26,308 nt of DNA, from IMG/VR virus record IMGVR_UViG_3300025810_001189, positions 1 to 26,308 of that record; one strand, 5' to 3'. The notes under the pieces are model-generated. The model had not been told where the DNA came from. It made no database searches and saw nothing but the letters and a program-made list of their open reading frames with translations. The DNA is from a virus. Made by a program: the position numbers and the translations under genes. Positions 171-20,874 of this stretch are shown in pieces. Within the stretch, counting starts at the first letter, position 1; each line of letters opens with the position of its first letter.

Positions 171-1028
171 TTAATAACTTTGAGCAAGTCGCCACATCAA
201 GTATGCTTTGCTTTCAATAGGATCATACTTTGCATCTTCATCACGCAGGTTACTTACAATAGTTCCTGGTGTTGGATCAACAAAGTGTGGCATGCTATAA
301 CGTGTTTGGTCAATGTGCGTGTTTACAACTCTGTGCTTTGTGCTAACAAAGTAATCGTTAGTCCAACGCTGTAGCAAGTCGCCAATGTTGACCACTACAC
401 CGTCTTGTGCATATGGTACTGCATGCCATGTACCTCCTAAATCTTGTACTTCAAGTCCAGGTACATTGTTGATCTGCCATAACAGAGTGATGGTACCATA
501 GTCACTGTGTTCACCAATGCGCATTTGCTTGTCCTCTAGTGGACCAGTGTACGCAGGGTAGTGGATTACTCGTGTTGTATTGTATGGATCCTGATGCGCA
601 TCTACCAGTGTAGTACCGCAGTCTAGGATAGTATCAAACTTAGCAAGTATACGCAGAGTTAGATCATCTGCAATACGAATAGTTTCTAATCCTGTTGTAC
701 GCAGATCAACTTCCGTGGGCCATAGTGCTTCTGGCATGCGTGTATTGTTGTAGTTGAAACTTTCTTTCATGTCTTTAGGAGCAGTTGGATCTACATTTTC
801 TGCACCCATAACACTGTATCCTAGATTGTTTTCTGCTTGATAACTGTATTTCTTTTTAGTATCCAAGTCCAGTTCAAAGAACTGCTTCATATAATCAAAC
901 CAGTGACGCATGGTTTGTTGGTCTTGTTGGTTTAGTGTATTGGTAAAGACTGCGAAGCCCACGGTTGTGTAGGCTTCGCGAATCTCGTCCAGTACTGTTT
1001 CTGAATTGAAATCAATAACTGGAATCAT
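171..1028 (-). CDS. 2-oxoglutarate/Fe(II)-dependent oxygenase, isopenicillin N synthase-like family
   Basis: 285 residues, a usual length for this family. The N-terminal segment (MIPVIDF, then GFAVFTN near residue 25) is the non-haem dioxygenase N-terminal domain. The double-stranded beta-helix core carries the iron triad H174-x-D176 (GEHSDYG) and H232 (KHRVVN), and the co-substrate motif R243-x-S245 (RYSMPHF). The enzyme should use Fe(II), O2 and probably 2-oxoglutarate to hydroxylate or oxidise a small molecule; the substrate cannot be told from sequence. It starts 3 bp after the stop of the BMP-family binding protein, with an AGGA ribosome site, so the two are surely co-expressed. I infer that the oxygenase acts on the compound the binding protein helps import. 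It could equally act on a nucleotide or sugar made by the phage. Confidence 0.85.
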   Translation of the reverse strand: MIPVIDFNSETVLDEIREAYTTVGFAVFTNTLNQQDQQTMRHWFDYMKQFFELDLDTKKKYSYQAENNLGYSVMGAENVDPTAPKDMKESFNYNNTRMPEALWPTEVDLRTTGLETIRIADDLTLRILAKFDTILDCGTTLVDAHQDPYNTTRVIHYPAYTGPLEDKQMRIGEHSDYGTITLLWQINNVPGLEVQDLGGTWHAVPYAQDGVVVNIGDLLQRWTNDYFVSTKHRVVNTHIDQTRYSMPHFVDPTPGTIVSNLRDEDAKYDPIESKAYLMWRLAQSY

Positions 1029-1031
1029 AGT

Positions 1032-2105
1032 TTATTGTCCTGGTACTTTAGCGGCAATACCTTCAACATAGTACATCATAGTATTCAAATGTGCATCGTC
1101 TGCAATTTCGCCTGCTTTAAGTTGTACTTTACCTTTGTTATCCAACAGTGGACCAGTAAATGCAAAGTATTCACCTGCTTCAATAGCATCCTTGATTTCA
1201 TTTGCTTTAGCAGCAACGTCTGCTGGCATGTTAGTAAACGGTGCCATTTGTACACTGCCGTCATCCATATGACCAAAGTAGTCACCTGTTTTCCAAGTGC
1301 CATTCATTACTTCGCCAACACGCTTTACATAGTAAGGACCCCAGTTGTCAATAGTTGCAGTCAACTGTGCTTTAGGAGCAAACTTGATCTGATCACTTGC
1401 TTGACCAAAGCCCAACTTACCTTCTGATTGTGCAGCCTGCAATGGAGCAGGACTATCAGTGTGCTGTGCAACCATGTCACAACCTTCGGCCATCATAACT
1501 TTAGCAGCCTGACTTTCTTTGCCTGGATCATACCAAGTGTTTGCCCAAGTAATCATGATCTCTACATCTGGGTTCATTTTCTTTGCGCCTAAGTAGTAGG
1601 TGTTGATTTCACGAATAACTTCTGGGATTGGGAAAGCAGCAACATAACAAATCTTGTTTGTCTTTGTCATCATGCCTGCAATAATACCCTGTACATGTCT
1701 TGCTTGATATAGACGCAAGCCATATGTTGCCATGTTTTCACTTTGCTTGTAGCCAGTTGCGTGTTCAAACTTTACATTTGGGAACTCTTTAGCAACTTTT
1801 GCCATTGACTGCATATAGCCAAAACTTGTTGCAAAGATAATGTCTGCTCCGCCTTTTGCCATGTTACGCATTACACGCTCGGCATCAGGGCCTTCGGGTA
1901 CACTTTCAACAAAGACTGTTTCAACTTTGTCGCCGTATGCCGCTTCTACTTGCTGACGACCAATGTCATGCCGATATGTCCAACCATGGTCACCAATTGG
2001 GCCTACATAGATAAACCCAACTTTCACTTTGTCTGCTGCACTTGCACCCATTGCCATACTGAATACGACTGCGGCTGCAACTACAATTGATTTAATAATA
2101 TTCAT
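1032..2105 (-). CDS. BMP-family ABC transporter periplasmic substrate-binding protein
   Basis: 357 residues. A Sec signal peptide is visible: basic start MNIIKS, a hydrophobic stretch, and probable cleavage after GASA near residue 23. There is no lipobox cysteine, so a soluble periplasmic protein of a Gram-negative cell is expected. The mature part begins KVKVGFIYVGPIGDHGWTY, the hallmark of the basic-membrane-protein/PnrA-like family, with later typical pieces (GADIIFATSFGY, FEHATGY, QGIIAGMMTK). Characterised members bind nucleosides or related compounds for ABC import. No permease or ATPase gene is in the window, so the protein would have to work with the host transporter, as phage PstS is thought to do in cyanophages. 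A ribosome site (AAGGA) precedes the ATG. Finding this family in a phage is unusual. Confidence 0.88.
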   Translation of the reverse strand: MNIIKSIVVAAAVVFSMAMGASAADKVKVGFIYVGPIGDHGWTYRHDIGRQQVEAAYGDKVETVFVESVPEGPDAERVMRNMAKGGADIIFATSFGYMQSMAKVAKEFPNVKFEHATGYKQSENMATYGLRLYQARHVQGIIAGMMTKTNKICYVAAFPIPEVIREINTYYLGAKKMNPDVEIMITWANTWYDPGKESQAAKVMMAEGCDMVAQHTDSPAPLQAAQSEGKLGFGQASDQIKFAPKAQLTATIDNWGPYYVKRVGEVMNGTWKTGDYFGHMDDGSVQMAPFTNMPADVAAKANEIKDAIEAGEYFAFTGPLLDNKGKVQLKAGEIADDAHLNTMMYYVEGIAAKVPGQ

Positions 2106-2125
2106 TGATATATCCTTCTATATTA

Positions 2126-2305
2126 TTATTTTGTCAAGGGCACTGTTAGTGTGCAATCGTTATAATCGCCGTCGCTACCATAAACTCTCTCGACTGTTTG
2201 TTTGACAAGTTGTCCATCACGCACGAAGTATGATGTTAGTTCTTGTCTAATTACCCCGTCGGGTAAATTGTTAAATGCTTGTAATAGTGGACCGTCTCTA
2301 TCCAT
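2126..2305 (-). CDS. Small unrecognised protein, 59 residues
   Basis: This short frame fills most of the gap between the amidinotransferase and BMP-protein genes. The ATG at 2303-2305 has a strong ribosome site (AGGAG, 6 nt upstream) that lies inside the last codons of the amidinotransferase gene, and only 2 bp separate the two genes. The product begins MDRDGPLLQAFNNLPDGVI, continues with QELTSYFVRDGQL, and ends CTLTVPLTK. It is soluble, with no signal peptide or membrane segment. I do not recognise a family. Spacing, ribosome site and protein-like composition make it a real gene. Confidence 0.75.
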   Translation of the reverse strand: MDRDGPLLQAFNNLPDGVIRQELTSYFVRDGQLVKQTVERVYGSDGDYNDCTLTVPLTK

Positions 2306-2307
2306 AG

Positions 2308-3183
2308 TTAACTCCTGTGTAAATCTAGTGTAGTGCAGTGGTGACCACCGCCTAGTGTTCTTGAATGTGCAAATGGTACAGTGTAACTTAATACCCCATT
2401 TGCTCGTAGTGCTTGTTCTAGTTTAGGACAGTCATCAATAACTGCCAAGTCCGGACGAATCATAAAGAAGTTTAATAGTATATAGTTACTTGCAAATGCT
2501 TCTCCAGAAAAATCTTTGCGTGTTAAATCTTCGTCACCTAGCCAAATAACTTCCCAGTCTTTAAAACATTTAGGTAGTGTTTTCTTTGTAACACGATCCT
2601 TGTTTACAACAACAAGTCCGTCTGCAACAGGACTAAATGTGCTGTCAATATGCACACCGCCATATGTCTTAGTAACTTCTACAGTGTAATCAGGAAACTG
2701 TTCTTGTAACCAAGTTGCACCTGCTCGTGTACCACTAACGCTTTGTAGATATAACAGCGTTTGGCCCAGCCTACAAACGTTAGCAGCATCGAACTTTACC
2801 CATCTATTGCGTGGGGCAGTGACTACACGCTTTGCACTTTTCAGCACAAAATCTATATAATGACTCTCTTGTAGTCTACACTCATACTGCATATTACAGT
2901 CGACAACAGTATTGCCAACAACTAGCAGTCTATCACGTGGGCAATAGTTGTACATGCCGCCTGAGATAGCAAAGTTGTTATACTTTGGTCTGTAAACTTT
3001 TACACCTTCTTGTTCGAGTGTGCGAGCAAAGCGATCCAAGTCCATATCTGCTTGTGCAGTAACATGTCCAAGGTATGCACCAGGCTGTGCAAAATGACAA
3101 CCATCAGGTTTGTTAGCACCTGCTGCCAGCCCTACTACCACACTACGAAGTGGTGACCATTCGTTGTGACTACTAATCTTCAT
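2308..3183 (-). CDS. Arginine:amine amidinotransferase (glycine/inosamine amidinotransferase family)
   Basis: 291 residues, shorter than the roughly 350-420 of cellular enzymes. The catalytic set of the family is present: D132 in FDAANVCRLG, H178 in GGVHIDSTF and the nucleophile C283 in LGGGHHCTTLD. These match the Asp-His-Cys triad of AGAT and StrB1, which move the amidino group of arginine to an amine through a Cys-amidino intermediate. The start ATG overlaps the folE stop (TAATG), so it is translated with folE. Possible acceptors are glycine (guanidinoacetate), an amino sugar, or an aminomethyl group on a modified base; the sequence does not decide. Dimethylarginine hydrolase or arginine deiminase are related folds, but the GGGHHC and HIDSTF context fits the amidinotransferase branch best. 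Confidence 0.85.
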   Translation of the reverse strand: MKISSHNEWSPLRSVVVGLAAGANKPDGCHFAQPGAYLGHVTAQADMDLDRFARTLEQEGVKVYRPKYNNFAISGGMYNYCPRDRLLVVGNTVVDCNMQYECRLQESHYIDFVLKSAKRVVTAPRNRWVKFDAANVCRLGQTLLYLQSVSGTRAGATWLQEQFPDYTVEVTKTYGGVHIDSTFSPVADGLVVVNKDRVTKKTLPKCFKDWEVIWLGDEDLTRKDFSGEAFASNYILLNFFMIRPDLAVIDDCPKLEQALRANGVLSYTVPFAHSRTLGGGHHCTTLDLHRS

Positions 3184-3869
3184 TAGCGTGGTGCAAACTC
3201 CTGTTGTAGTTTGATGTTGTCAAAGAACTCTTGCTTTGTGCCTGCATCACTGTTAAATGCACCTTCGAGTACAGTTGTTTGTGTCAGACTGCTATGTGCC
3301 ATAATGCCACGATTCTCACAACAGCCATGTGTTGCTTGAATGTAAACAGCAACATCTTTACTGCCAGTTGCACTCATAATCTCACGGGCAATGTCGTTGC
3401 AAAGTTCTTCTTGTAGCGTACCTCTTCTGGCACACCATTGTGCAATGCGTGTATACTTGCTAAGTCCAATAAGTTTCTCTGCAGCAATAATACCAATGTA
3501 TGCAACGCCTGTGACTGGCTGATGATGATGGCTACAAACACTTTTAAGTTCACTGCGTACAACCAACATACCTTTGTATCCTTCTTCAACATGATTAGGA
3601 AATGCAGTTGCATTAGGCATTGGATCATAGCGACCACTCATCAATTCGTTGATGTACATCTTTGCTAGTCTGCGACCAGTGTCATTGCTGTTAGGATCAT
3701 TTGCACGATCAATGATAAGACTGTCCAGTACATCTTCAAACTTAGTAGTAAGTTCTTCAATTAGTGACTGTTTGTCGCCTTCGTGTAGATAACTTGAGAT
3801 GTTATCGCCTGCCCAATAGCGTCCGCCAGCATTGCGGATTCTTGCTGTAATTTGTTGTGAAATTGTCAT
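3183..3869 (-). CDS. folE: GTP cyclohydrolase I
   Basis: 228 residues from the chosen start. The enzyme opens GTP to 7,8-dihydroneopterin triphosphate, the entry step of both folate and 7-deazaguanine (preQ0) synthesis. Family signatures are clear: SELKSVCSHHHQP with zinc ligands C112 and H115, GLSKYTRIAQWCARR, and the third ligand C183 in ATHGCCENRG. I choose the ATG at 3869, preceded by GGAG at 6 nt; an in-frame ATG at 3899 would lie at or before the expected transcription start of the promoter at 3908-3936. The gene leads an operon with the amidinotransferase, the small protein, the BMP-family protein and the oxygenase. A QueD-like gene and a DpdA-like gene elsewhere in the window suggest its product feeds deazaguanine synthesis. 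Confidence 0.93.
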   Translation of the reverse strand: MTISQQITARIRNAGGRYWAGDNISSYLHEGDKQSLIEELTTKFEDVLDSLIIDRANDPNSNDTGRRLAKMYINELMSGRYDPMPNATAFPNHVEEGYKGMLVVRSELKSVCSHHHQPVTGVAYIGIIAAEKLIGLSKYTRIAQWCARRGTLQEELCNDIAREIMSATGSKDVAVYIQATHGCCENRGIMAHSSLTQTTVLEGAFNSDAGTKQEFFDNIKLQQEFAPR

Positions 3870-3907
3870 TGTATTCTCCGAGTTATAGTGGTGTGTCACT
3901 GTATAAT

Positions 3908-4525: not shown

Positions 4526-5076
4526 TTGTGACCTGTAAGTTGCAATGTGTAGCGTTTGTCAAGTCCAATGTTTGCAGCCAGGTGTGGAGTATCGCTTTCC
4601 CAGAATGTGTAGTCACCTGCACGCCAATTAGTTATAGGACTTTCTTCAATTTCGGCAATGTGTCCAGACTTCCAATCTTCTAGATACACAACTACACGCA
4701 CACAATCTTTTAGTCTTACACCAAATAGTTCTCTGTATTTTTTGTATGTATCTTTATGGTTAGGAAGTATTACACCTGTGCCCATTTTGTAGTAACTGGT
4801 ACCAACATCTTTAACATCATAAGTATCTTCAAACCATTTTACGATTTGGTCATTCCATGCGGGCTGTGGCTTGCGCATATCACATAACATACCAGTGTAG
4901 TGACTTGTTGGATGCACATAGCCTTGGCGTTTCCATTTCATCAAGTCTTGAGGATTGTTAAAACTTTCGAGAGTGTAGTTTAGTTGTGTATAACTAACCT
5001 TGCTCCAAAAAGGTTCAATGTGACCTCTATGCCAGCGAGCGTGTGTTTCCGTAATGGATGACTTTATATCGTTCAT
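4522..5076 (-). CDS. 2OG-Fe(II) oxygenase-like protein
   Basis: 184 residues. A jelly-roll oxygenase core is suggested by H107-x-D109 (LPNHKDTYKKYR), a distal H165 (SDTPHLAANIG) and R175 (KRYTLQL), spaced as in 2OG-dependent hydroxylases of the prolyl or aspartyl hydroxylase type. I chose the ATG at 5076 (GAAGG 7 nt upstream) over an in-frame ATG at 5100. Even so, the gene overlaps the end of the dehydrogenase gene by 50 bp. Such oxygenases are frequent in T4-like marine phages, mostly with unknown substrate. With the neighbouring sugar genes it may hydroxylate a sugar, lipid or peptide; this is inference. Confidence 0.65.
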   Translation of the reverse strand: MNDIKSSITETHARWHRGHIEPFWSKVSYTQLNYTLESFNNPQDLMKWKRQGYVHPTSHYTGMLCDMRKPQPAWNDQIVKWFEDTYDVKDVGTSYYKMGTGVILPNHKDTYKKYRELFGVRLKDCVRVVVYLEDWKSGHIAEIEESPITNWRAGDYTFWESDTPHLAANIGLDKRYTLQLTGHK

Positions 5077-6250
5077 CTTCAAACCTTCTCCAAGGATCAA
5101 CTACAATACTGCCTTCGCTTAGATGGCAATATAGTTCTTGTTTGTGCGCAGTATCCATGTATTTGTAAGTAATGTCGCTGCTATGTGCCAGTAGTGCCAC
5201 TGCACTAAATGGACCACGCTGTGGATGTGTATGTGGATCTACTAGTATAGGATGGTATCCTAACTGTTCACAATAATGTGCTACTAATAAACTGTAACTG
5301 CCATCTTTATAAGGCACATCAGGCTTGTATGCTACACCGTGAATAAGCACAGGCAAGTCATGTTCCTTTGCTTGTGCTACCAAAAACTCTGCTAGGTTCC
5401 GTGCTTGTATTTCGCGAGCATTCATAATAGCATCAAAAATGTCGTAACCTAAATCAAGTTCCTGTGCCATGAAACGCAGAGCAATATTGTCACGCGGATG
5501 GCAAGCACCGCCATCACCCATCCCAGCAGTCATATACTGTGGTCCCATGATCCGTTTAGTTGACTCCGCCAGTGCCGTAGTAACCACGTCAACATTTATA
5601 TTGCCCTGCTTCATTGCGACATCCTGTATCATATTTGCCAGTCCAATCTTTGTACTGATAAACGTGTTGTAAAACACTTTGATACATTCGCACTCATCCC
5701 AAGTGCCAACTACATACCTGGGATCATTCTTGATAACAGTTTTGTATAGGTCGATTAGTTCTCGTGCATCACCTGTCTCGTCACCATCTTCAGTGCCGAT
5801 CATAACCATTTCGGGATTTACAAAATCCCAAGCAACACTGCCCATAGCAATTAAGTATGGGTTGTATACAAACCGTGTATTGGTTACAAGTGGCTCTAGT
5901 TCTCTGCGAACTGTGCCTGGTAGTACCGTGCTAATAAGCACAATCATCTGCGCACTGTTCATTACACTATCGCACTCACGCAGTACATCTTTTACAATGT
6001 CGTAATTAAAGTCTTTAGGTTCTAAGTGTGCAGTAGGCGCACGACCATCATAACTTGGATCATGTGGAGTAGGTACTGCAACGAATACAATCTTTGCAAA
6101 CTTTACTGCCTCTGCAATAGTGTCTTTAATATCTACTAAGTCACTGGTAACACTAGCAACATCATAGCCTGTTACACTATGTCCTGCTTTTGCTATCTCT
6201 TCTGCACAAGGCATACCTAGTTTGCCTGTGCCAATAAATGCTATGTTCAT
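5027..6250 (-). CDS. UDP-glucose/GDP-mannose dehydrogenase family protein
   Basis: 407 residues, near the family's usual length. The NAD-binding Rossmann motif GTGKLG lies at residues 7-12, followed by VFVAVPTP, STVLPGTVR and the NP-type strand YNPYLIAMGS. The catalytic lysine is K191 (CIKVFYNTF), and the nucleophilic cysteine is C250 in GDGGACHPRD, which matches the GFGGSCFPKD motif. Members oxidise the C6 alcohol of a nucleotide sugar to a uronate using two NAD+. The glycosyltransferase gene just upstream ends with TAATG at this start. Together they probably modify a phage or host surface glycan. The exact sugar cannot be deduced. Confidence 0.85.
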   Translation of the reverse strand: MNIAFIGTGKLGMPCAEEIAKAGHSVTGYDVASVTSDLVDIKDTIAEAVKFAKIVFVAVPTPHDPSYDGRAPTAHLEPKDFNYDIVKDVLRECDSVMNSAQMIVLISTVLPGTVRRELEPLVTNTRFVYNPYLIAMGSVAWDFVNPEMVMIGTEDGDETGDARELIDLYKTVIKNDPRYVVGTWDECECIKVFYNTFISTKIGLANMIQDVAMKQGNINVDVVTTALAESTKRIMGPQYMTAGMGDGGACHPRDNIALRFMAQELDLGYDIFDAIMNAREIQARNLAEFLVAQAKEHDLPVLIHGVAYKPDVPYKDGSYSLLVAHYCEQLGYHPILVDPHTHPQRGPFSAVALLAHSSDITYKYMDTAHKQELYCHLSEGSIVVDPWRRFEDERYKVIHYGNTRSLA

Positions 6251-7317
6251 TAGATGCTTTCTCGAATATGTTTATACAGTGCTTGTCCACTGAAGAATTC
6301 AGTTTCTAGCCTTTTAACTTGTGTATGGATTGCTGGGAGAAACTTTGTGTAATTCTCCATGTAGTTACGAATTCTAGCAACAACTTGATCTTTGTGCTGT
6401 AGATATTTATCATAACTTTCTGTCCATTCACTAGGATATAAGAATTCACCAACTGCCATTTCACTGTAACTTAAACGATTGGGTACCATTGGAATACTGT
6501 TAACAAGCGCACCTTCATACCAACTAATACCAAGTGTCTCTTGTAGGTTAGCACTGAATACAAGTTTGCTTTCACCTAACAGGTTATGGTATTCGTTCTT
6601 TGTAAGTTGTTGTTCTTGACAAATAACAAACTCGTACTCGACCATAGTTTCTTTAAGATCACGGAAGATGTCAACTTGTTTCTCTGGTGCAATACGATGC
6701 GGGAAAAGAATCAAGTTACGCTTTTCCATTCCTGCATAAGCAGTTAAACTGTTACGCAAGTACTCCATGGGCCAGCCAACAATCTTAACTTTGTTATCGT
6801 CAACATCAAAACTTTGCTTGAATAACTCTACATGAAACTGTGTAGCAAAGTAGTTGTCATCATAACATTCAAACATACTTTGTTCTGCAAGTCTTACCCA
6901 CGGCGCATCGCCAATTAATCTGCCCAAGAAATCTTGAGGATCATAACTGCCAGCATGCCACATACCACCGATCCTAATATTAACTCCAAGGAGTTCCGCC
7001 ATATAGCGTAACTGAATAACAGTGGGATTCCAAGCATCAGTGTAAAGGAAATAGTCGCCATTATGCACTTTTCCTTTACAAAACAATTCAGCGATTTGCA
7101 TAAGTTGATTACTTTTGTATACATTAGTGCCTCCAAAGTTTAAAAACGCACCCGGTGTTGTAGACTGTGGAACATCGCCGCCGCTAATAACCGTTACTTC
7201 GTCCAATACAACACTGTCACTTAACAGTGCTCGTTGCATTTGCTCTGGAAGATGTTCTTTCCATTGTTTGGTGTAGCGAGTATCAACTGCTTCGATGTCC
7301 ACAATATACACAGTCAT
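6250..7317 (-). CDS. Glycosyltransferase, GT-B fold, GT4-like
   Basis: 355 residues. The C-terminal nucleotide-sugar-binding domain shows LILFPHRIAPEKQ near 202-213 and the retaining GT4 signature E260-x7-E268 (LQETLGISWYEGA), followed by SIPMVPNRLSY. The N-terminal acceptor half is divergent (VTVISGGDVP, GDYFLYTDAWNPTV). It should transfer a sugar from a nucleotide-sugar donor to an unknown acceptor, either a host or phage surface glycan or hypermodified DNA. The start (TAAATG) is coupled to the 87-residue upstream gene, with GGAG 7 nt before. It precedes the nucleotide-sugar dehydrogenase gene that could supply or alter its donor. Confidence 0.8.
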   Translation of the reverse strand: MTVYIVDIEAVDTRYTKQWKEHLPEQMQRALLSDSVVLDEVTVISGGDVPQSTTPGAFLNFGGTNVYKSNQLMQIAELFCKGKVHNGDYFLYTDAWNPTVIQLRYMAELLGVNIRIGGMWHAGSYDPQDFLGRLIGDAPWVRLAEQSMFECYDDNYFATQFHVELFKQSFDVDDNKVKIVGWPMEYLRNSLTAYAGMEKRNLILFPHRIAPEKQVDIFRDLKETMVEYEFVICQEQQLTKNEYHNLLGESKLVFSANLQETLGISWYEGALVNSIPMVPNRLSYSEMAVGEFLYPSEWTESYDKYLQHKDQVVARIRNYMENYTKFLPAIHTQVKRLETEFFSGQALYKHIRESI

Positions 7318-7593: not shown

Positions 7594-8040
7594 TTAGGCT
7601 TTTGGAAAGGTGACAACACAACCGTTCTCACCATCTTCGCTCACTTCAATGTGAACTTCTCTGTTTGATCCATACTTTTTACGGATCTCTAAAAACATGT
7701 CGTCTGCAATCATTTCACATGATTTGTAGTCTAGTGTCATAACGTTTTCACTGAACAACCGTTGTAGCCAACGACTGAACTGAATAAATTCAATCTCACG
7801 ATCATCATGGAATACTTCAATTGCTACACGGAAGTGAAACATGTGACGATGTGGGTATCCTAAAAAAGATACATCGTCCCAATCGCCAGTTGCTAGTTTA
7901 GGATCATCCAGTGCAGCAGGATACTTGTGAATACCCTCTTTCTGAAAGGTAACCCAGATCATACGCTTGCTTTTGTGTAGTTGTTGACGCATAGCATCTT
8001 CACGCATTGCATCTAACATCATATTATCCATTTGTGCCAT
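7594..8040 (-). CDS. queD: QueD / 6-pyruvoyl-tetrahydropterin synthase-like protein
   Basis: 148 residues, with about 25 extra N-terminal residues. T-fold landmarks align with QueD: a first zinc ligand H38 (EGIHKYP), the pair H64-x-H66 (YPHRHMFHF), the strand-helix EIEFIQFSRWLQRLF, a second helix starting SCEMIADDMFLEI, and the substrate Glu region VSEDGENGCVV near 133-143. QueD turns dihydroneopterin triphosphate into 6-carboxytetrahydropterin, the second step towards preQ0. FolE, the first enzyme, is encoded in this window. The catalytic cysteine that normally lies between the first His and the HxH pair is not visible, so the chemistry may differ. The ribosome site AAGGA supports the ATG at 8040, which overlaps the SGNH gene by 17 bp. 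Confidence 0.7.
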   Translation of the reverse strand: MAQMDNMMLDAMREDAMRQQLHKSKRMIWVTFQKEGIHKYPAALDDPKLATGDWDDVSFLGYPHRHMFHFRVAIEVFHDDREIEFIQFSRWLQRLFSENVMTLDYKSCEMIADDMFLEIRKKYGSNREVHIEVSEDGENGCVVTFPKA

Positions 8041-9384: not shown

Positions 9385-9896
9385 CAGTCAATTACCTCAT
9401 CGCCTTTATAATCCCGCCAATCAGTATACACACGGCGATCCATTAAACTGTGTATGCTGTGGCACCAAACACCTGAGTTAGTATCACCCCAAGTGTTATC
9501 ATCTAACTTCAATGTAGCATTGTAGTTGAATTGTTTAATATATGGTAGTTTAACTGAAATCATGTTAACGAACTTATTGTGTTCATCAAATCCACATTCC
9601 AACACTTCTTTAACATAGAATACATCATAGTCAAGTGTACACCAATAGCCTGCTTTTAACAATGCTTTGATCATGTTTTCCCAAGCAGTCCAGTCTGCAT
9701 CACTTTCTGGTGCGAAACTTTGACTTGTGCCAAAATATAAATGCTTGATGCCATGTGCATCTGCTCGTTGTTGTATCTCATTGCAAGGCTGCACACCAAC
9801 AACAAATAGTGTAGGTTCACCGTACATTGCTGTGTGTTCTACTTCTGTACCTGTAAAGTATACAACTTCCTGTCGCTTGTTAGTATCTAGTCCCAT
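9384..9896 (-). CDS. Unrecognised phage protein, 170 residues
   Basis: The ATG at 9896 overlaps the end of the zinc-dehydrogenase gene by 10 bp, and its stop is coupled to the next gene (TGATG). The product has alternating strands and helices: VVYFTGTEVEHTAMYG, PTLFVVGVQPCNEIQ, IKHLYFGTSQSF, then YWCTLDYDVFYVKEVLECGF and VNMISVKLPYIKQFNYN. This looks like a soluble alpha/beta protein. I do not recognise the family. The constant pairing with the 253-residue acidic gene suggests a joint role. Confidence 0.7.
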   Translation of the reverse strand: MGLDTNKRQEVVYFTGTEVEHTAMYGEPTLFVVGVQPCNEIQQRADAHGIKHLYFGTSQSFAPESDADWTAWENMIKALLKAGYWCTLDYDVFYVKEVLECGFDEHNKFVNMISVKLPYIKQFNYNATLKLDDNTWGDTNSGVWCHSIHSLMDRRVYTDWRDYKGDEVID

Positions 9897-10801
9897 TGAA
9901 TATAACCTCTACCATAGTTACCTGTGCGATTGTTGGCATCTTCAAATGCTTGTTGCCATTCTGTATTTCTATTATAACTGCGATCCCAGAAGTTGTCAAG
10001 CACAAGTTTGCCATCTAACTGCCAGTTTCTAGCACAGATCATTGCTTCATAAAATGTAGGTGCTCTCGGACTTGGGAAGATCATTGTTACTGCCTTCCAC
10101 AACATGTTAGCAAGTGTAGTGTCAATGCCTTCGGGCTTTTCGGTAGCCATAATAATGATTGCATTTTCATTGATGCAGTCTGTGTTAAACACACGATCAT
10201 CTTCTTTAAGATCAACTATGATATCATATGTGCCATCAAAGTCGATCAGCAGACTGTGTCCTTGGTCACCAAACCATTCTTCGTTTGACTTACCAATAAC
10301 ATCTACACTAATATCTGGGAATAGTATTGCAAATGTGCGTAGCACAATCTTTGCTAGGAATCCACTGCCAATAATACATGCCCTGGGCAACGGTGTGGTT
10401 GTAGTTTGCAGTGCGATAGCATGCCTTGCTTGTAGCACACAGTTGACCCCGCATGCCACTGGCTCTAAAATCCACTTTGGATCTGCCGCTGGAACTACAA
10501 CCCATTGTTCAGGTTTCACATGGTACTCATCAGCATACGCTGGCTCGCCTCGGGTTGCTACATAGTCACCGGGCTGTACTCCTGAAACACCGCTGCCCAC
10601 AGCCATCACTTGTGCAAGTCCTTCATGTCCTTGCATATGTATTGGTAGTGGACCAAAGTCGCCGTTCATCATTGCGATGTCACTGCGACATACTCCTGTC
10701 ATTACTGTACGAACATGAATGTCCTGTGCATCTAACTTACCAGGAGAGTATTTTGCTTCTTCAAACACACCATTGCCTAGTGTGTATAATATATTAACCA
10801 T
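9887..10801 (-). CDS. Zinc-dependent medium-chain dehydrogenase-like protein
   Basis: 304 residues, a little short for the MDR family (about 340). The GroES-like N-terminal domain shows TGVCRSDIAMMNGDFG (catalytic zinc cysteine), the GHE motif in IHMQGHEGLAQV, and VAVGSGVSGVQPGDYV-type strands. The third zinc region ILEPVACGVNCVLQA follows, then a Rossmann segment CIIGSGFLAKIVL for NAD(P). The four-cysteine structural zinc loop is missing, as in many sugar or threonine dehydrogenase relatives. It probably oxidises or reduces an alcohol or sugar. It overlaps the upstream Gfo/Idh/MocA gene by TAATG, so the two may form consecutive steps. Confidence 0.75.
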   Translation of the reverse strand: MVNILYTLGNGVFEEAKYSPGKLDAQDIHVRTVMTGVCRSDIAMMNGDFGPLPIHMQGHEGLAQVMAVGSGVSGVQPGDYVATRGEPAYADEYHVKPEQWVVVPAADPKWILEPVACGVNCVLQARHAIALQTTTTPLPRACIIGSGFLAKIVLRTFAILFPDISVDVIGKSNEEWFGDQGHSLLIDFDGTYDIIVDLKEDDRVFNTDCINENAIIIMATEKPEGIDTTLANMLWKAVTMIFPSPRAPTFYEAMICARNWQLDGKLVLDNFWDRSYNRNTEWQQAFEDANNRTGNYGRGYIQWD

Positions 10802-11673
10802 TAGAACAACTCTAGTTGTTTATGAATCCAAACGTCACGAGCGAATTGTTCGCTCCAGTATCTATCATTATATAGATTATCTATGGCTGTGTCAACCATT
10901 TTCTCATATGCATCTTCTGGACATAGTCCAAGTGGCTCTGTGTGAATTAGGTCACCTTGTTTGAAAAACTCAATACTGATCTTATCACCTACAGGATTCT
11001 TCCAACTTGTAGTGCAGGTATACATATGCCATTCGTTGTTTAGCATTAGTTCTGCAGTGTCATCAACATCATATACACCACTTGGATCTACTACGCCATA
11101 GTCAGTTGATCCCACAGTATCCAATGTATAGTGCTGATGTTTATTAGCACTGTATAGTCCTAAACTAATCCATTCAGGATCAAATACCTGCACCCAACTT
11201 AGCAAGTGTGGCATCAAGTCTCTGCTTACACCACCCCATGCACGACTCTTATCAGTAAACCAACTACCTGGATTAGGCACTCGATTATAGTTGTGCCAGT
11301 TGAGAACAATCTCATCACTCTTGCGAGCAATCATGTACAGGTCTGCTACATTGTGTCTAAACTGATTGTTCTTGACCATTGCAAAGCGTGTGTTAGGAAA
11401 TGTATGCACAAGTGCTTCCCAATGTTCTGCTGTGCGTAATCCTGGCTTTTCTACAAACACAATCTTACAACGACTAGCAATGGTTCTTGCAATAGTGCCG
11501 TGTGTCCAATTAGGTGTGCAAATGTGTGCCGCATCAAATTCGCCTTCGACTTCTTCAATGTCCCAATAGTCAGCAGGCTTGTTTTGATCTACTGTTACTA
11601 CATCCCAGAGTTTGCTTTCGTAGATACTTTTGTAAAGTTCGCCTATACCCATACCTACTATAAGAGCTCGCAT
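10801..11673 (-). CDS. Gfo/Idh/MocA-family oxidoreductase
   Basis: 290 residues. The N-terminal Rossmann fold starts MRALIVGMGIGELYKSI. The family motif EKPG lies in IVFVEKPGLRTAEHW, and the catalytic-domain signature is WGGVSRDLMPHLLSW, equivalent to the usual GG-x3-D-x3-H. Members use NAD(P) to oxidise or reduce sugars and related compounds. The start is coupled to the transglycosylase-like gene (TAATG, with GAGGA as ribosome site inside that gene's last codons) and the end to the zinc dehydrogenase gene. A role in making an unusual sugar, or a base substituent, is possible; neither can be chosen from sequence. Confidence 0.8.
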   Translation of the reverse strand: MRALIVGMGIGELYKSIYESKLWDVVTVDQNKPADYWDIEEVEGEFDAAHICTPNWTHGTIARTIASRCKIVFVEKPGLRTAEHWEALVHTFPNTRFAMVKNNQFRHNVADLYMIARKSDEIVLNWHNYNRVPNPGSWFTDKSRAWGGVSRDLMPHLLSWVQVFDPEWISLGLYSANKHQHYTLDTVGSTDYGVVDPSGVYDVDDTAELMLNNEWHMYTCTTSWKNPVGDKISIEFFKQGDLIHTEPLGLCPEDAYEKMVDTAIDNLYNDRYWSEQFARDVWIHKQLELF

Positions 11674-13175
11674 TATACTTCCTCAAACAAACTAAAGTAC
11701 TGTGCGCTACTGTTGACTGTTTTCTTGCCAACATGACCGCGTGTGCCAACAACCTTCATCCACAGTCGTGTATGGTCATCGATCATTTTCATTTGTGCAT
11801 CATAACTGTCTAGTTCAAATATTCTGGCAATAACATCTTTAACTTCTGTTTTGTCAAATGTATCCTCTACTAGCATATAAGGATATCTACCTTCGTCAAA
11901 CACACGATTTGCTTCCTGCACACTGCGCAAGTGTGTATACACATTATGATTCATAAGCAGTGCATAGGTAAAACTATCCCAACTTGTAGCATTGCTTTGT
12001 CCCATGCGATTTACATCGTTAGGACCATATACTGTGATGTCATTTAGTTTTAGTCCTTGACTCATTGGACTTGACATCCAGTTGTCATACAGTGGATCAC
12101 AATACTGATCGTAAGGAGTAGTGTCCATGTGCAGTGCTTTGTCATCTGGCGCACTTTCCATCATGTAACTCCACTTGCCTTCATGTTCTAGTCTATACCC
12201 TGTGTACTGTGTTCCGTTGCTTGTAGCAAGGAAAGGACTAGCACAGTCAAATGTAATAGTGAAGTTTTCGTTGTGTGCTTTGCGTACACCACGCTGAATA
12301 GCAGTCAGCACCATTGCCCATTCTAGTTTGCTTGTGCCCAAGAAGTGCATAACATCGTGCTTGCCCTTTTCAAGTAAGCCGTCACGCATCAGTGTAACCA
12401 CACGCTTGAGTGCAAGGTGAATATCACACATGTTCTGACCACCCATTGCCCAGCCATTAAAGTGTGTTTCCGGATACTTTACTGGATCACAAAAGTCTTT
12501 CATTTGCTCATACCAGTCATCTGCTTGTGCAAAGTTTTCACCTTGTAGCACATTCAAGAACTTGCAACTACCATCTCTGTGTTTCATAAAGTATTCGTTA
12601 TTGTATCTTGTACCATCAACTGCTTCTTGATATGAACTGATCTTACTTGCCGCACTGCCTTCCGGACTACGATCTACCCATGCTGGAATATCCAAAATCA
12701 TTCCATAGTCCATAAACTTGTCCATCCAGCGTAGTACGCCGTCACGTTTCTTTTGCGCCTTTTCGCAACCACTGCCTGCACGCCAGTCGCCTTCCCATTT
12801 ACCTTTACCAATCTGAAAGCCTCCACTATCGCCTAGTAGCCAACTTGACTCTCTGTTGCGATCACGGAACATATCTTCTCTGTAAAGGTCTTTGGTAAGA
12901 TCCAAACTAGCGTGACCAGCACTGTGCAAACTCCACTTGTACTGCCACAATCCTTTAGGATCAAGCCAGTTCATGCTCTCAACACCATGAGGTAAATGTG
13001 TTGGGATTCTATCGTGTGGGATATATGGAACACCACTGCCCTTGATGTTTTCATCATAAGGCTGTAATCCTCTGCGCTGTCTGCCTACAAACAGTGCATA
13101 GAATGTACTAAGTGCTGGCAGGAATACTGCATAGTCCTTTTGTTCAGCGGTTAAGTTTAACTTTAGTTCCGACAT
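11673..13175 (-). CDS. dpdA: tRNA-guanine transglycosylase-superfamily protein, DpdA-type (7-deazaguanine insertion into DNA)
   Basis: 500 residues. The TIM-barrel signatures of the TGT superfamily run in order: D116-SGGFQ (residues 116-121), NVLQGEN (208-214), GWAMGG (241-246), HFLGT (277-281) and the probable nucleophile D310 in ITFDCASPFLATSNG, equivalent to the FDCVxPTR loop. The CxCxxC zinc site of tRNA-acting TGT is not visible, which favours the phage DpdA branch that exchanges guanine in DNA for a 7-deazaguanine. FolE and a QueD-like protein in the window could supply the precursor; QueC is not here. The gene overlaps the radical SAM gene by 32 bp and is coupled to the oxidoreductase gene. 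A tRNA or other nucleic-acid target remains possible. Confidence 0.8.
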   Translation of the reverse strand: MSELKLNLTAEQKDYAVFLPALSTFYALFVGRQRRGLQPYDENIKGSGVPYIPHDRIPTHLPHGVESMNWLDPKGLWQYKWSLHSAGHASLDLTKDLYREDMFRDRNRESSWLLGDSGGFQIGKGKWEGDWRAGSGCEKAQKKRDGVLRWMDKFMDYGMILDIPAWVDRSPEGSAASKISSYQEAVDGTRYNNEYFMKHRDGSCKFLNVLQGENFAQADDWYEQMKDFCDPVKYPETHFNGWAMGGQNMCDIHLALKRVVTLMRDGLLEKGKHDVMHFLGTSKLEWAMVLTAIQRGVRKAHNENFTITFDCASPFLATSNGTQYTGYRLEHEGKWSYMMESAPDDKALHMDTTPYDQYCDPLYDNWMSSPMSQGLKLNDITVYGPNDVNRMGQSNATSWDSFTYALLMNHNVYTHLRSVQEANRVFDEGRYPYMLVEDTFDKTEVKDVIARIFELDSYDAQMKMIDDHTRLWMKVVGTRGHVGKKTVNSSAQYFSLFEEV

Positions 13176-14037
13176 TCTTTTGACTTTCTAGTTCGTTCTG
13201 TGGATTTCTTGTACACATATTACAAATGTTTTGTGCATATGATCGTTCTTCTAGCCACTGATCTATTGTAGCAGAATCACTTCCATATTGCAACTTTTTA
13301 TAGTTCTCAAAGTAAGGTTTCCATTCCTCAACTTGATCTAGTCCAATGACTGGTCCAGTTTGGAATAAGCCTGCACTTGCAGGACATCTGTATAAATCGC
13401 CATCAACAAGATTTATAAAATCTCTTGCGACACAGTGTTCCCAACTTTCTTCAGCACCATTGCTGAAATAATCTTGTTTTGGTCTTGCAGTTTCGCCTGT
13501 ACCTGCATAAAACTCCCACCAAACACTCTCACTAAAACTTTCATGTAGGTGTACATAGTAGCCGTTACTACTGCGCCATCCTCTTTCTTGTCCGTACCCG
13601 TTAACAGCAGGAACTCCTTCTAGTTCTAGTAAATCAAATGTTTCTTGTGACTTCCAATAGTTTATATAGTCCCATACTACACGGCCATAATCACTAAGGT
13701 GTTGACTTATAATAATGTTAAAGCCTATCTTTTTTTGCATCTGATAATGCTCTTGATTCAGCAGTGCCCCGTTTGTCTGTACATTTAGTACACTGTTTGG
13801 AAAGTATTGCTTACATCCTTTTAACCAAAGTTCTAAATCTGGATTAATTAAAGGTTCACCACCAAACATATTGATAAAAGCAGGATTTATGTGTTGTGAC
13901 CAAAACGCTAGTTGAGCTTCGTTGTATCTATATATACCTTTAACAAGACGATGGTCACTAAAAGTAAGACAGCCATGACAACTTAGATTGCAGGTTTTGC
14001 TGATAAAAACATCTAGTTGAGATATAGTATTACGCAC
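13144..14037 (-). CDS. Radical SAM protein with extra C-terminal cysteines
   Basis: 297 residues. The 4Fe-4S site C16-x3-C20-x2-C23 (KTCNLSCHGC) and the SAM-binding GGEPL (59-63) followed by VQTNG define a radical SAM enzyme. Further cysteines near the C-terminus (EHCVARDF, DLYRCPAS, NICNMCTR) resemble a SPASM or twitch domain binding an auxiliary cluster. QueE, the radical SAM enzyme of preQ0 synthesis, is shorter and lacks such a tail, so I do not call this QueE, though it abuts the DpdA-like gene. It could modify a peptide, a sugar or a base. The gene is AT-rich compared with the DpdA-like gene and overlaps its upstream SGNH neighbour by 8 bp. Confidence 0.8.
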   Translation of the reverse strand: MRNTISQLDVFISKTCNLSCHGCLTFSDHRLVKGIYRYNEAQLAFWSQHINPAFINMFGGEPLINPDLELWLKGCKQYFPNSVLNVQTNGALLNQEHYQMQKKIGFNIIISQHLSDYGRVVWDYINYWKSQETFDLLELEGVPAVNGYGQERGWRSSNGYYVHLHESFSESVWWEFYAGTGETARPKQDYFSNGAEESWEHCVARDFINLVDGDLYRCPASAGLFQTGPVIGLDQVEEWKPYFENYKKLQYGSDSATIDQWLEERSYAQNICNMCTRNPQNELESQKNVGTKVKLNR

Positions 14038-17905: not shown

Positions 17906-20566
17906 TTACTCAAAGGAGAATAAATCATCAAATGTGTTTGCAGTTTGCGTTGCACCTTTAAGATCCCATTTGAGAACACTGAGCAAGTTATCAATCTTTT
18001 GATCTACGATAGTTGCTTCCATCAGTCCATTATCAAAAGGCATGTCTTTAAACCACTGTGGCAAATGTGTTTCGTCTGTGGGATAGCCAATGCTAGTCCA
18101 GCCCAGAGGATTGCTTTTTAGTTTACACACAATAGTTTTAGCACCATCCATAATCTCTTGGCTATACTTGTCGCCATTCATCTTACGCATGTTGTTCCAG
18201 TTCATTGCTGCTCTCACATGTCCGGGCATGTTTGCTTTACCAAGTCGCTTTTCTTCTGCTGCATACTTGGTCAAGTTGTTAACACGCTTGGGTGTGCCTT
18301 TTTCCCAACCTGGACGCTCGTGGAAGTTGTTTTTGAATTCTTTGATCTTTTCAATAATTTCTTCACGTTGGCTACCAGTCAGTACATCCAATAGTAGTTC
18401 ACTCATAAAGTCCTGCATAACCTTAGGTGTGTCACTGCGCTTTAGATCTAATCCCATTGCTTTTACTTTGCCGGGCTTGCCATCTGTGTCCAAACGGAAA
18501 CCTTCTAAATCATAGATTAGTGCTGCATAACGCTTCTTGGTAATGTATAGACCTTTGGTTGCAACAATCTCTCTGCCGCCTTTAATGATCTCACCATTTG
18601 CTCTTGGACAATGAAAAGCACGTTCCATGAACACTGGAAACTCTAAGTTAACTTGATCTGCAATACCATCATAGAGTTGTGCAACAATCTCTTTGGTCCA
18701 TTCTTGTCGCCCTGCCTCAACATCCTCTTGCATCATGGGCCATGCACTAAAGTATACCGAATCGGTATCGCCATATACAATAGCATCGCCTACATGGTCT
18801 TCTTTTCCTGTAAGTAGTGCGTTAACAGTTTCAGCCATTCGCTTGCTGATGCACCGTCCAGTAAGAGTTGTTGATTGCCCGATGCGATGGTCAAAGAAAC
18901 GGCAACCTGGATTAAGAATAGCACCATATAAACTATTAAGATTAATCTTCTTAACTAATTGTCGCTTGTCCCAATACTCAACATCACCTTGTTCATCCTT
19001 TGCACGTTTCAGTTCCTTCTGCATATCTTTACGCTCTGCATACCAGCGTTCAAGCAGTGCAGGGATAATGCCCTTGCGTTCATATGTAAAGATAGTACCG
19101 TTAGCACTAAGCGTCCAAGGCTGATTGCTGTCAAATATAAGACACCAAACATCATACGCACTGAGTGTATCCTCGTCACCGTTCTCCCAGTCAATGGTAA
19201 TCTCAGTGCCACGTTCCATGTTCATAACTGCTTGATACTCTTTACTACCAAACTCGCCTTCCCATGCATCAGCAAAACTTTTTTTGTCTGCCATCTTTGT
19301 GCGCACTGCATGTTCGGTCATTGTTTGACGCAGTTGTCCTACCACAGTTTCTGGACCCATGTTAAGCGCACGAATTACACTAGGATACAAACTGTTGATG
19401 TCGATAGCACCAATCCAGTCATGCAATCCTTTTTTAGGATATGCAACATATGCACCTGCAGCAGTAGTATGTTCGCCATCTCTGTTTTTACGATTGGGAA
19501 CAACCATACCACGAGCATGTGCGTCATTGATAATTGCTTGTTCTGTCACAGCAACAGCACCCATAGTAGTCATCAGCAGCACAGTGTTCTCATGTGCCAG
19601 CACATTACTTAGGTCAATAAAGCGTAGTTTTTTGTCCAGTTTGTTTAGCAGCGCAGTATCTTGTCTGTTATAATCGATAAACTTTTCAAAGTCTTGATTG
19701 TATAACTGATCCAGTGTGCCTTCATATGCAACCTTGCGTTCATCTAGTTCATGTTCGCCAATACTATCGAGAGTATAACTGTGTCGTTCTTCATATGTAT
19801 ACTTGCGATACAGTTGCATGTAATCCAAGTGTACACGCCCTACTAGATCAAATGTTTGACTTTCTTTACCAAAGCGTTCAAATGTACGCTTACGAGGTTG
19901 TTGACCGAACAAACACCATTTGCGGTTATCATCTTTACTAAGCACACGAGTAATACGATTAATTGTATAGGGTATATCATATCCTTCACTGTTCCAACCA
20001 CTTATAATATCTGCATCATCTAACAAGTCTAAAAACACTTGTAGCATCTCTGCTTCACTGGTAAACAGATATGTGTTATCAAAACGTTTTGTTAGATCCT
20101 TAGCAGTTTCCATTGTCATACTACCAGGTGGGATAGCCAATGTAACAAGTGTGTCTGTCCAGTCTAAGTATATACTAATTGCCGTAATAGGATTAAAAGG
20201 ATCCTCAGGACTACTATAGCCTTTTTCTTTGTGGAAGTCTACCTCAATATCGAAAAAAGCAGTTTGTAGTTTAGGAGCATCAGCGTTTAGATAGTTGTCT
20301 GCCAAACAACGGAACACAGGATTGATGTCACTTTCCCATACGCCTTTGCTACCTTGGATTTTAAGTTCACGTTGGAACTCTTTGCGATTGCGTGTAGCAA
20401 ATCTACTCACAGGTTTGTCATATATAGTTTTGTATTTGCCACGTGGATCATCATAGTAAAACACATAGTTGGCAGGATACTCCTGGTATGTTCTCTTTCC
20501 ATTCACACGTTCGACTACATGTATCCTGTCACGTTCTCTGTCAAAATATGCGTCTACATAACTCAT
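17906..20566 (-). CDS. 43: DNA polymerase, family B, T4 gp43-like
   Basis: 886 residues from the ATG at 20566, close to T4 gp43 (898). This start overlaps the previous stop (TGATG) and has GGAG 7 nt before; an in-frame ATG at 20626 would add 20 residues inside the upstream gene. The 3'-5' exonuclease motifs are AFFDIEVDF (D106, E108), SGWNSEGYD (N192, D197) and YNRQD (Y299, D303). Polymerase motif A is DINSLYPS (from D389), motif B is KKINLNSLYG (539-548), motif C is YGDTDS (598-603), and KKRY follows. The last residues DDLFSFE resemble the clamp-binding tail of gp43. It replicates the phage genome together with the clamp encoded downstream. Confidence 0.97.
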   Translation of the reverse strand: MSYVDAYFDRERDRIHVVERVNGKRTYQEYPANYVFYYDDPRGKYKTIYDKPVSRFATRNRKEFQRELKIQGSKGVWESDINPVFRCLADNYLNADAPKLQTAFFDIEVDFHKEKGYSSPEDPFNPITAISIYLDWTDTLVTLAIPPGSMTMETAKDLTKRFDNTYLFTSEAEMLQVFLDLLDDADIISGWNSEGYDIPYTINRITRVLSKDDNRKWCLFGQQPRKRTFERFGKESQTFDLVGRVHLDYMQLYRKYTYEERHSYTLDSIGEHELDERKVAYEGTLDQLYNQDFEKFIDYNRQDTALLNKLDKKLRFIDLSNVLAHENTVLLMTTMGAVAVTEQAIINDAHARGMVVPNRKNRDGEHTTAAGAYVAYPKKGLHDWIGAIDINSLYPSVIRALNMGPETVVGQLRQTMTEHAVRTKMADKKSFADAWEGEFGSKEYQAVMNMERGTEITIDWENGDEDTLSAYDVWCLIFDSNQPWTLSANGTIFTYERKGIIPALLERWYAERKDMQKELKRAKDEQGDVEYWDKRQLVKKINLNSLYGAILNPGCRFFDHRIGQSTTLTGRCISKRMAETVNALLTGKEDHVGDAIVYGDTDSVYFSAWPMMQEDVEAGRQEWTKEIVAQLYDGIADQVNLEFPVFMERAFHCPRANGEIIKGGREIVATKGLYITKKRYAALIYDLEGFRLDTDGKPGKVKAMGLDLKRSDTPKVMQDFMSELLLDVLTGSQREEIIEKIKEFKNNFHERPGWEKGTPKRVNNLTKYAAEEKRLGKANMPGHVRAAMNWNNMRKMNGDKYSQEIMDGAKTIVCKLKSNPLGWTSIGYPTDETHLPQWFKDMPFDNGLMEATIVDQKIDNLLSVLKWDLKGATQTANTFDDLFSFE

Positions 20567-20874
20567 CAAAGAGCTCCAATTAGTTGTACTAATGCGTAAA
20601 TGTTCATTATTGTGAACCAACTGCACAACACAAAGGCAAATGCTGCTTTTCTTATTATAGTACTAACTGCACCCAAAATGCTACCTATAAGATACAGTGG
20701 TACAAATTGCCAGCCATTGGGATCGAGGATAGTAAAACTCAATATTGCACTGGCACTGATAAGCATCACTGCTTCAATTAGTTCGCAGTAAAATGCCAAT
20801 GGACTCAGTTTATAACTGTTCTCAAAGAACTCGTATATTGCTTTTGTGTAAGCAAATTTTCTAATACGATGCAT
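20566..20874 (-). CDS. Small membrane protein, 102 residues
   Basis: After a basic N-terminus (MHRIRKFAYTKAIYEFF) the protein has about three hydrophobic segments: LIEAVMLISASAILSFTI, VPLYLIGSILGAVSTII and FAFVLCSWFTIMNIYALV. It should sit in the host inner membrane. No family is recognised. It starts right after the DsbA-like gene (TAAATG) and ends on the polymerase start codon (TGATG), an unexpected place for a membrane protein. A role in superinfection exclusion or in anchoring replication to the membrane are guesses only. Confidence 0.7.
   Translation of the reverse strand: MHRIRKFAYTKAIYEFFENSYKLSPLAFYCELIEAVMLISASAILSFTILDPNGWQFVPLYLIGSILGAVSTIIRKAAFAFVLCSWFTIMNIYALVQLIGAL

Follow-up and report, generated by a model that had tools for sequence, protein, structure and literature searches.

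The window analysed here, the whole stretch of 26,308 bases of a virus record, contains side by side a gene for a periplasmic binding protein of the BMP type and a gene for an oxygenase resembling isopenicillin N synthase (IPNS). The locus raises the question of what a phage might do with such a pair, which compound the two proteins handle and where the genes came from. The first-pass annotation had proposed an auxiliary metabolic module in which the binding protein boosts a host ABC system and the oxygenase processes the imported compound, a nucleoside or a related nutrient.

The gene pair in the window and in other viruses

Both open reading frames are intact and situated on the minus strand. 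The binding protein gene (BMP/PnrA-type periplasmic substrate-binding protein, 357 aa, 1032..2105) comes first and is followed after 3 bp by the gene for the IPNS-like Fe(II)/2-oxoglutarate oxygenase (285 aa, 171..1028). The matches to Pfam are far above the cut-offs: the binding protein reaches 181.7 bits with Bmp (PF02608, cut-off 24.1) over residues 26-290, and the oxygenase 73.5 bits with 2OG-FeII_Oxy (PF03171, cut-off 23) and 61.4 bits with DIOX_N (PF14226, cut-off 27.3). The two genes are adjacent and intact, in line with the annotation. The N-terminus of the binding protein, MNIIKSIVVAAAVVFSMAMGASAA, displays a basic start, a hydrophobic core and ASA/A; reading the translation by eye, we assigned a putative signal peptide to residues 1-24 (2034..2105, minus strand). 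A Shine–Dalgarno-like AGAAGGA (2113..2119, minus strand) is located 7 nt ahead of the ATG of the binding protein gene. The AGGA found 9 nt ahead of the oxygenase ATG (1038..1041, minus strand) lies within the 3' end of the binding protein gene, suggesting that the two genes are jointly transcribed and translationally coupled. An Rfam scan of the window gave no match and thus no riboswitch at this locus.

A family-B DNA polymerase gene (17906-20626) is the viral hallmark of the window. Upstream of the pair we identified an amidinotransferase-like gene (2308..3183, minus strand; phmmer match to the inosamine-phosphate amidinotransferase 1bwd, E 1.7e-44), which perhaps serves base hypermodification, and, by Pfam, folE (3183-3899). 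Further upstream lies an open reading frame of 500 aa with a DSGGFQ motif (11673-13175, minus strand). A Pfam search with this frame gave no match; its AlphaFold2 model (pLDDT 81.8) retrieved tRNA-guanine transglycosylases (TGT) in all 50 top rows of Foldseek. Taken with folE and the radical SAM gene at 13144-14037, this TGT-fold gene suggests that the window encodes a 7-deazaguanine DNA modification carried out by a DpdA-like enzyme. The region 7594-8040 had been suspected by eye to be QueD-like, which was unsupported on checking. Two smaller observations concern the same region. A 59-aa frame (2126-2305, minus strand) is situated between the amidinotransferase-like and the binding protein genes and recurs in 11 viral loci. 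A packed block on the minus strand comprises a UDP-glucose/GDP-mannose dehydrogenase-like gene (5027-6250), a gene for 355 aa (6250-7317), an alcohol dehydrogenase-like gene (9887-10801) and a Gfo/Idh-like gene (10801-11673); the genes of this block are perhaps involved in a sugar-type decoration of DNA or capsid.

Scans of IMG/VR yielded 219 stretches with relatives of the binding protein and 193 with relatives of the oxygenase, and the best 80 of each were kept. The oxygenase gene was also present in 143 of the 144 viral binding protein loci, the remaining locus ending 7 bases past the binding protein gene, and the spacing was about 10 bp or less in 136 of the 144, a set in which certain contigs contribute overlapping loci and a few IMG/VR contigs (e.g. 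L019) may be mis-called bacterial ones. This adjacency and the dN/dS values against relatives of about 0.04-0.15, indicative of purifying selection, argue that the pairing is not due to chance. A dN/dS of 0.78 obtained for the oxygenase of locus L081 was discarded because an in-frame stop had shifted the codon register. The stop (L081:10187-10189, codon 63) interrupts an otherwise intact oxygenase gene whose product is 95% identical to that of the window, and reflects either a sequencing error or decay.

As annotated for the window, transporter genes are lacking near the pair: no homologue of an ABC ATPase or permease was detected in any of 147 viral loci. Pair-bearing loci without the folE and DpdA-like genes of the window still bear phage genes, namely for a DnaB-like helicase, a T4-type DNA polymerase, an SbcC-like nuclease subunit, DNA ligase and ribonucleotide reductase; the pair thus moves among different phages. 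With the polymerase gene of the window and the replication and reductase genes of these other loci, the pair is placed in genomes with viral hallmark genes and is a candidate auxiliary metabolic module, which would improve infection through host metabolism. A phage binding protein of this family had been regarded as unusual; the pair turned out to be common in marine viral contigs. Among records of isolated phages the only matches of the binding protein, below 40% identity, were in human-faecal contigs without annotation, the oxygenase had a single match of 25%, and PHROGs has no family for the binding protein. On L019, the contig that may be bacterial, a second BMP-like protein of a distant family (27%; L019:8092) follows the pair.

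Bacterial counterparts and the direction of transfer

Six of 136 genomes of the SAR116 order encode an oxygenase 66-78% identical to that of the window, and it always adjoins a BMP gene. These pairs are chromosomal, for example on a 273-kb contig; they stand next to a xanthine phosphoribosyltransferase gene (NF006613, 242 bits, cut-off 138) and housekeeping genes in two genomes and next to hydantoinase-type genes in three. We had considered one copy from a single-cell genome (L149) to be a viral contig, which was dropped since the other genomes place the pair on chromosomes near housekeeping genes. Directly upstream of the SAR116 pair, loci L263-L268 contain stop-bearing, decayed remnants of an amidinotransferase gene, the counterpart of which precedes the pair in the window. 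Such decayed remnants of phage type suggest viral donation. The genomes with the high-identity pair also encode a BMP-type permease, which in five of the six is adjoined by a second BMP of 53-54% identity. This complete BMP-type ABC operon could be the partner of the phage binding protein. In three further SAR116 loci (L260, L262 and L294) a BMP of another family (27-29% identity) adjoins an IPNS-like oxygenase (about 30%), possibly a third pairing of this kind.

In the genus SB2 of the Rhodobacteraceae all four genomes encode a BMP that is 75-77% identical to that of the phage. It belongs to an operon with the order ATPase, two permeases, BMP, and xdh genes are found upstream. Compared with their counterparts in other roseobacters, the SB2 permeases show 61-75% identity, whereas the SB2 BMP reaches only 55-61%. 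The IPNS-like oxygenase is absent in SB2. Instead, the BMP gene is followed by genes for a split (two-piece) Rieske oxygenase and then a GST (L150:11266-13505); among PDB entries the Rieske parts come closest to SxtT/SxtDIOX and to the methylxanthine demethylases NdmA/NdmB, and by this resemblance a purine or methylpurine oxygenase is possible. A protein of the viral clade thus occupies the place of the cognate binding protein in a purine-type ABC system, which is the strongest indirect indication that a binding protein of this kind functions with a cellular permease. Taken with the permease and second BMP of SAR116, it supports by inference the proposal that the phage protein serves a host ABC system.

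Outside these groups the pairing recurs at a greater distance. Of 80 bacterial loci with a BMP gene, 22 have an adjoining gene for an IPNS-like oxygenase. In 21 of them, mainly from Pseudomonas and other Gammaproteobacteria, the oxygenase is 29-34% identical to that of the window; the 22nd is the SAR116 copy L149 (76%). The operon of P. segetis (L221) has the order RutR-like regulator, ABC ATPase, two permeases, SDR, 8-oxoguanine deaminase, BMP, oxygenase, adenosine deaminase, and a xanthine riboswitch is found in the vicinity. Dioxygenases of the pcbC (IPNS-like) type are among the principal kinds of gene controlled by xanthine riboswitches, and they have been predicted to act on purines (PMC7373994). 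A scan of 14 bacterial loci for this riboswitch gave only one positive, so the linkage is not general. The Pseudomonas pairs and the riboswitch-controlled pcbC genes (PMC7373994) share with the viral pair the order of BMP followed by IPNS-like oxygenase, in a setting of ABC and purine-deaminase genes. In contrast to the few bp in viruses, the gap between the two Pseudomonas genes amounts to tens to hundreds of bp, and since the oxygenases form a separate clade with about 30-34% identity to the viral ones, the reaction may differ. The two genes are therefore neighbours in bacteria, both in an ABC operon of Pseudomonas and on SAR116 chromosomes. The module reading gains from this, as a BMP-type gene next to an IPNS-like oxygenase gene occurs in at least two separate lineages, the viral/SAR116 one and the gammaproteobacterial one, the latter among purine deaminases.

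In the BMP tree the viral, SAR116-pair, SB2 and L019 copies form one clade (bootstrap/SH-aLRT 100/100; the final tree treated L019 separately), and the BMPs of the SAR116 ABC operons are its sister group (98/98). Within this clade the SAR116-pair copies are found at two separate places and the SB2 copies at a third (support 84/71 to 85/96), all within viral sequences; in no bootstrap tree did the viral rows form one clade. A quick oxygenase tree, the deep part of which is unsure because of long branches, likewise nested the SAR116 copies in the viral ones and placed the gammaproteobacterial pair oxygenases in a distant clade. The simplest reading of the trees would be an alphaproteobacterial origin, spread in phages and two or more returns to hosts, a picture that unsampled bacterial lineages could alter; the direction of transfer is less sure for SB2. 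As a correction to the annotation, the tree points in addition to a gift of genes from virus to host. Two bacterial groups thus appear to have taken over genes of the phage pair. That the lineage evolved in marine phages and re-entered bacteria as the resident BMP of the SB2 ABC system and as a domesticated pair in SAR116, so that phages would have re-equipped abundant marine bacteria for purine import, is a tentative proposal to which we give slightly less than even odds.

Ligand pocket and active site

The solved chains closest to the phage binding protein in phmmer are the Brucella BMP 3s99 (E 2.7e-119, 52% identity) and AtzT (6pi5, E 9.4e-102, 48% identity), both homologous over the full length. 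AtzT retained guanine with a Kd of 110 nM and binds adenine with 2.5 µM, and adenine has been modelled in 3s99 (PMC6834077). According to the alignment S94, F95, E162 and W191 are identical to AtzT contact residues (contacts from PMC6834077) and W42, H215 and D217 to residues of 3s99, and all are present in all viral copies. The purine-contact set of the AtzT/3s99 subgroup, consisting of the stacking aromatics, a Ser, a Glu and H/N-T-D/N, is hence present in the phage protein. At H215-T216-D217 (codons 1455..1463, minus strand) AtzT has N218 and N220, and the phage protein has His and Asp as in purine-bound 3s99. Unlike both relatives, it comes from a virus that lacks permease genes and has an oxygenase as partner. 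As the closest relatives of solved structure are binders of free purine bases and the pocket is conserved, a purine base is the more likely ligand class, and the nucleoside named in the first-pass annotation fits less well.

One position flanking the pocket differs. E166 (codon 1608..1610, minus strand) aligns with N169 of AtzT, a second-shell residue that supports N218 (PMC6834077), and with a Gly in 3s99. Glu occupies this position throughout the viral, SAR116-pair and SB2 BMPs. The gammaproteobacterial pair BMPs (10 of 10) have Asp, as do two from Marinomonas, and of the 55 remaining bacterial BMPs 53 have Gly. Away from the BMP gene, the Marinomonas genomes also encode a gamma-type oxygenase. 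An acid at this position was thus gained twice independently in oxygenase-bearing lineages, which suggests a common ligand shift, with the reservation that these are only two events and that SB2 has the Glu without an IPNS-like oxygenase.

For the oxygenase, the iron motif H174-S-D176 (codons 501..509) aligns with H214/D216 of thymine-7-hydroxylase (T7H), the third iron ligand H232 (333..335) with H271, and the 2-oxoglutarate motif R243-Y-S245 (294..302) with R286/S288, all codons lying on the minus strand. The iron motif is invariant in viral, SAR116 and gammaproteobacterial copies, and none of H174, D176, H232 and R243-x-S245 varies across the deduplicated viral copies, so that the motifs are intact as had been noted. 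The AlphaFold2 model (mean pLDDT 90.1) has T7H (5c3p) as its first-ranked fold (Foldseek, VIA-align) with Z 33.3, rmsd 1.9 and 32% identity over 272 residues, a lead of only about 1 Z unit over other 2OG oxygenases of unrelated chemistry; the fold is widespread. IPNS itself matched weakly by sequence (E about 1e-4) and reached a fold Z of about 29. The label "IPNS-like" is therefore adequate for the fold family, whereas IPNS proper was ruled out as the closest relative, T7H being nearer by sequence and fold.

T7H shares the iron and 2OG residues and acts on a free nucleobase; the window protein is shorter and belongs to a group found in bacteria and viruses. The substrate residues of T7H are N87, E122, R190, Y217, F292 and N294, and the base is held between the aromatic residues F292 and Y217 (PMC4787775). 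N87, R190, Y217 and F292 are kept as N68, R153, Y177 and F249, while E122 and N294 are replaced by N92 and D251, for which reason we rejected T7H as the identity of the enzyme. The conserved pair F249/Y177 would fit a planar ring substrate; the same residues occur in several uncharacterised relatives. Cyanophage 2OG-Fe(II) oxygenases belong to the same broad superfamily, but those in BFVD, mostly shorter proteins, matched the model poorly (TM by query 0.32-0.44). The better BFVD matches came from giant viruses of eukaryotes.

Possible role of the pair

Cyanophages are known to carry PstS, a phosphate-binding protein, as an auxiliary metabolic gene. PstS is likewise a binding protein supplied by the phage to an ABC importer of the host, but it belongs to another family with another ligand, and the phage BMP is accompanied by an enzyme for the imported compound. 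In the preferred reading the first gene product would be exported and would capture a free purine base in the periplasm, of the adenine, guanine, hypoxanthine or xanthine class or possibly a derivative, and, having no permease of its own, would deliver it by docking to a BMP-type ABC permease of the host. In the cytoplasm the oxygenase would then hydroxylate or otherwise oxidatively modify the base, with O2 and 2-oxoglutarate being converted to succinate and CO2. The modified base may finally enter nucleotides for viral DNA through host phosphoribosyltransferases such as the xanthine phosphoribosyltransferase. We assign this capture, oxidation and use in nucleotide synthesis a probability of roughly 60%, the gene neighbourhoods that speak for it being evidence of an indirect kind. 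We are more confident of the narrower statement that the pair is a purine-related uptake module, and less so of the fate of the oxygenase product.

We considered several alternatives. The altered pocket at E166 could accept something other than a simple purine, e.g. a methylated purine or a hydroxypyrimidine, which the oxygenase would demethylate or hydroxylate. The acids at position 166 in the oxygenase-bearing lineages, as opposed to the Gly of most other bacterial copies, and the Rieske oxygenase and GST genes behind the SB2 BMP speak for it. Yet the acid arose independently only twice, SB2 has it without the IPNS-like enzyme, and the AtzT equivalent is a second-shell residue while the primary contacts are otherwise conserved, so that we regard this explanation as doubtful. 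Alternatively, the oxygenase could be a breakdown step of the hypoxanthine to xanthine to urate type, supplying ammonia and carbon to the infected cell. The bacterial counterparts do sit with deaminase and xanthine dehydrogenase genes, and HpxDE-like purine oxidation is a published parallel (PMC7373994). Such catabolism for nitrogen or carbon is nevertheless unlikely in view of the neighbourhood of the pair: neither the window nor the sampled viral ORFs contain further purine-breakdown genes, the sampled viral neighbours are replication and ribonucleotide reductase genes, and in two SAR116 genomes the adjoining xanthine phosphoribosyltransferase is a salvage gene.

A connection with DNA base modification is proposed by the window itself, where folE and the TGT-fold gene lie upstream of the pair. 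The pair could feed guanine or a related base to 7-deazaguanine synthesis, or the oxygenase could act on a modified base. When the 64 viral loci with 8 kb or more of upstream sequence are considered, a folE homologue occurs in 24 and a DpdA-like gene in 20, but 40 have no folE homologue in the flank examined, and the SAR116 and Pseudomonas pairs stand in purine contexts; we therefore consider this improbable. Least credible, and in our judgement very improbable, is a binding protein without a role in transport, for example one that excludes other phages in the periplasm, with an oxygenase linked by chance. It would account for phages that encode no permease, but it conflicts with the near-invariant adjacency over divergent viral lineages, the recurrence of the pair in bacterial ABC purine operons and the conserved ligand pocket.

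The preferred reading, purine-base capture through a host ABC system, is in part already known in kind: phage binding proteins for host ABC importers are represented by PstS, and BMP with IPNS-like oxygenase by bacterial purine operons. In the open-access literature searched we found no description of a phage BMP, of its fixed pairing with an oxygenase or of a return to hosts. If true, the nutrients for which phages supply binding proteins would include purines as well as phosphate, here with an enzyme to match, and marine phages would obtain building blocks for their DNA from dissolved organic matter, beyond the recycling of host DNA. The compact two-gene system also makes the predicted, unproven bacterial purine oxygenases of the PcbC type testable. 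Finally, a flow of genes from phages to abundant marine bacteria is suggested.
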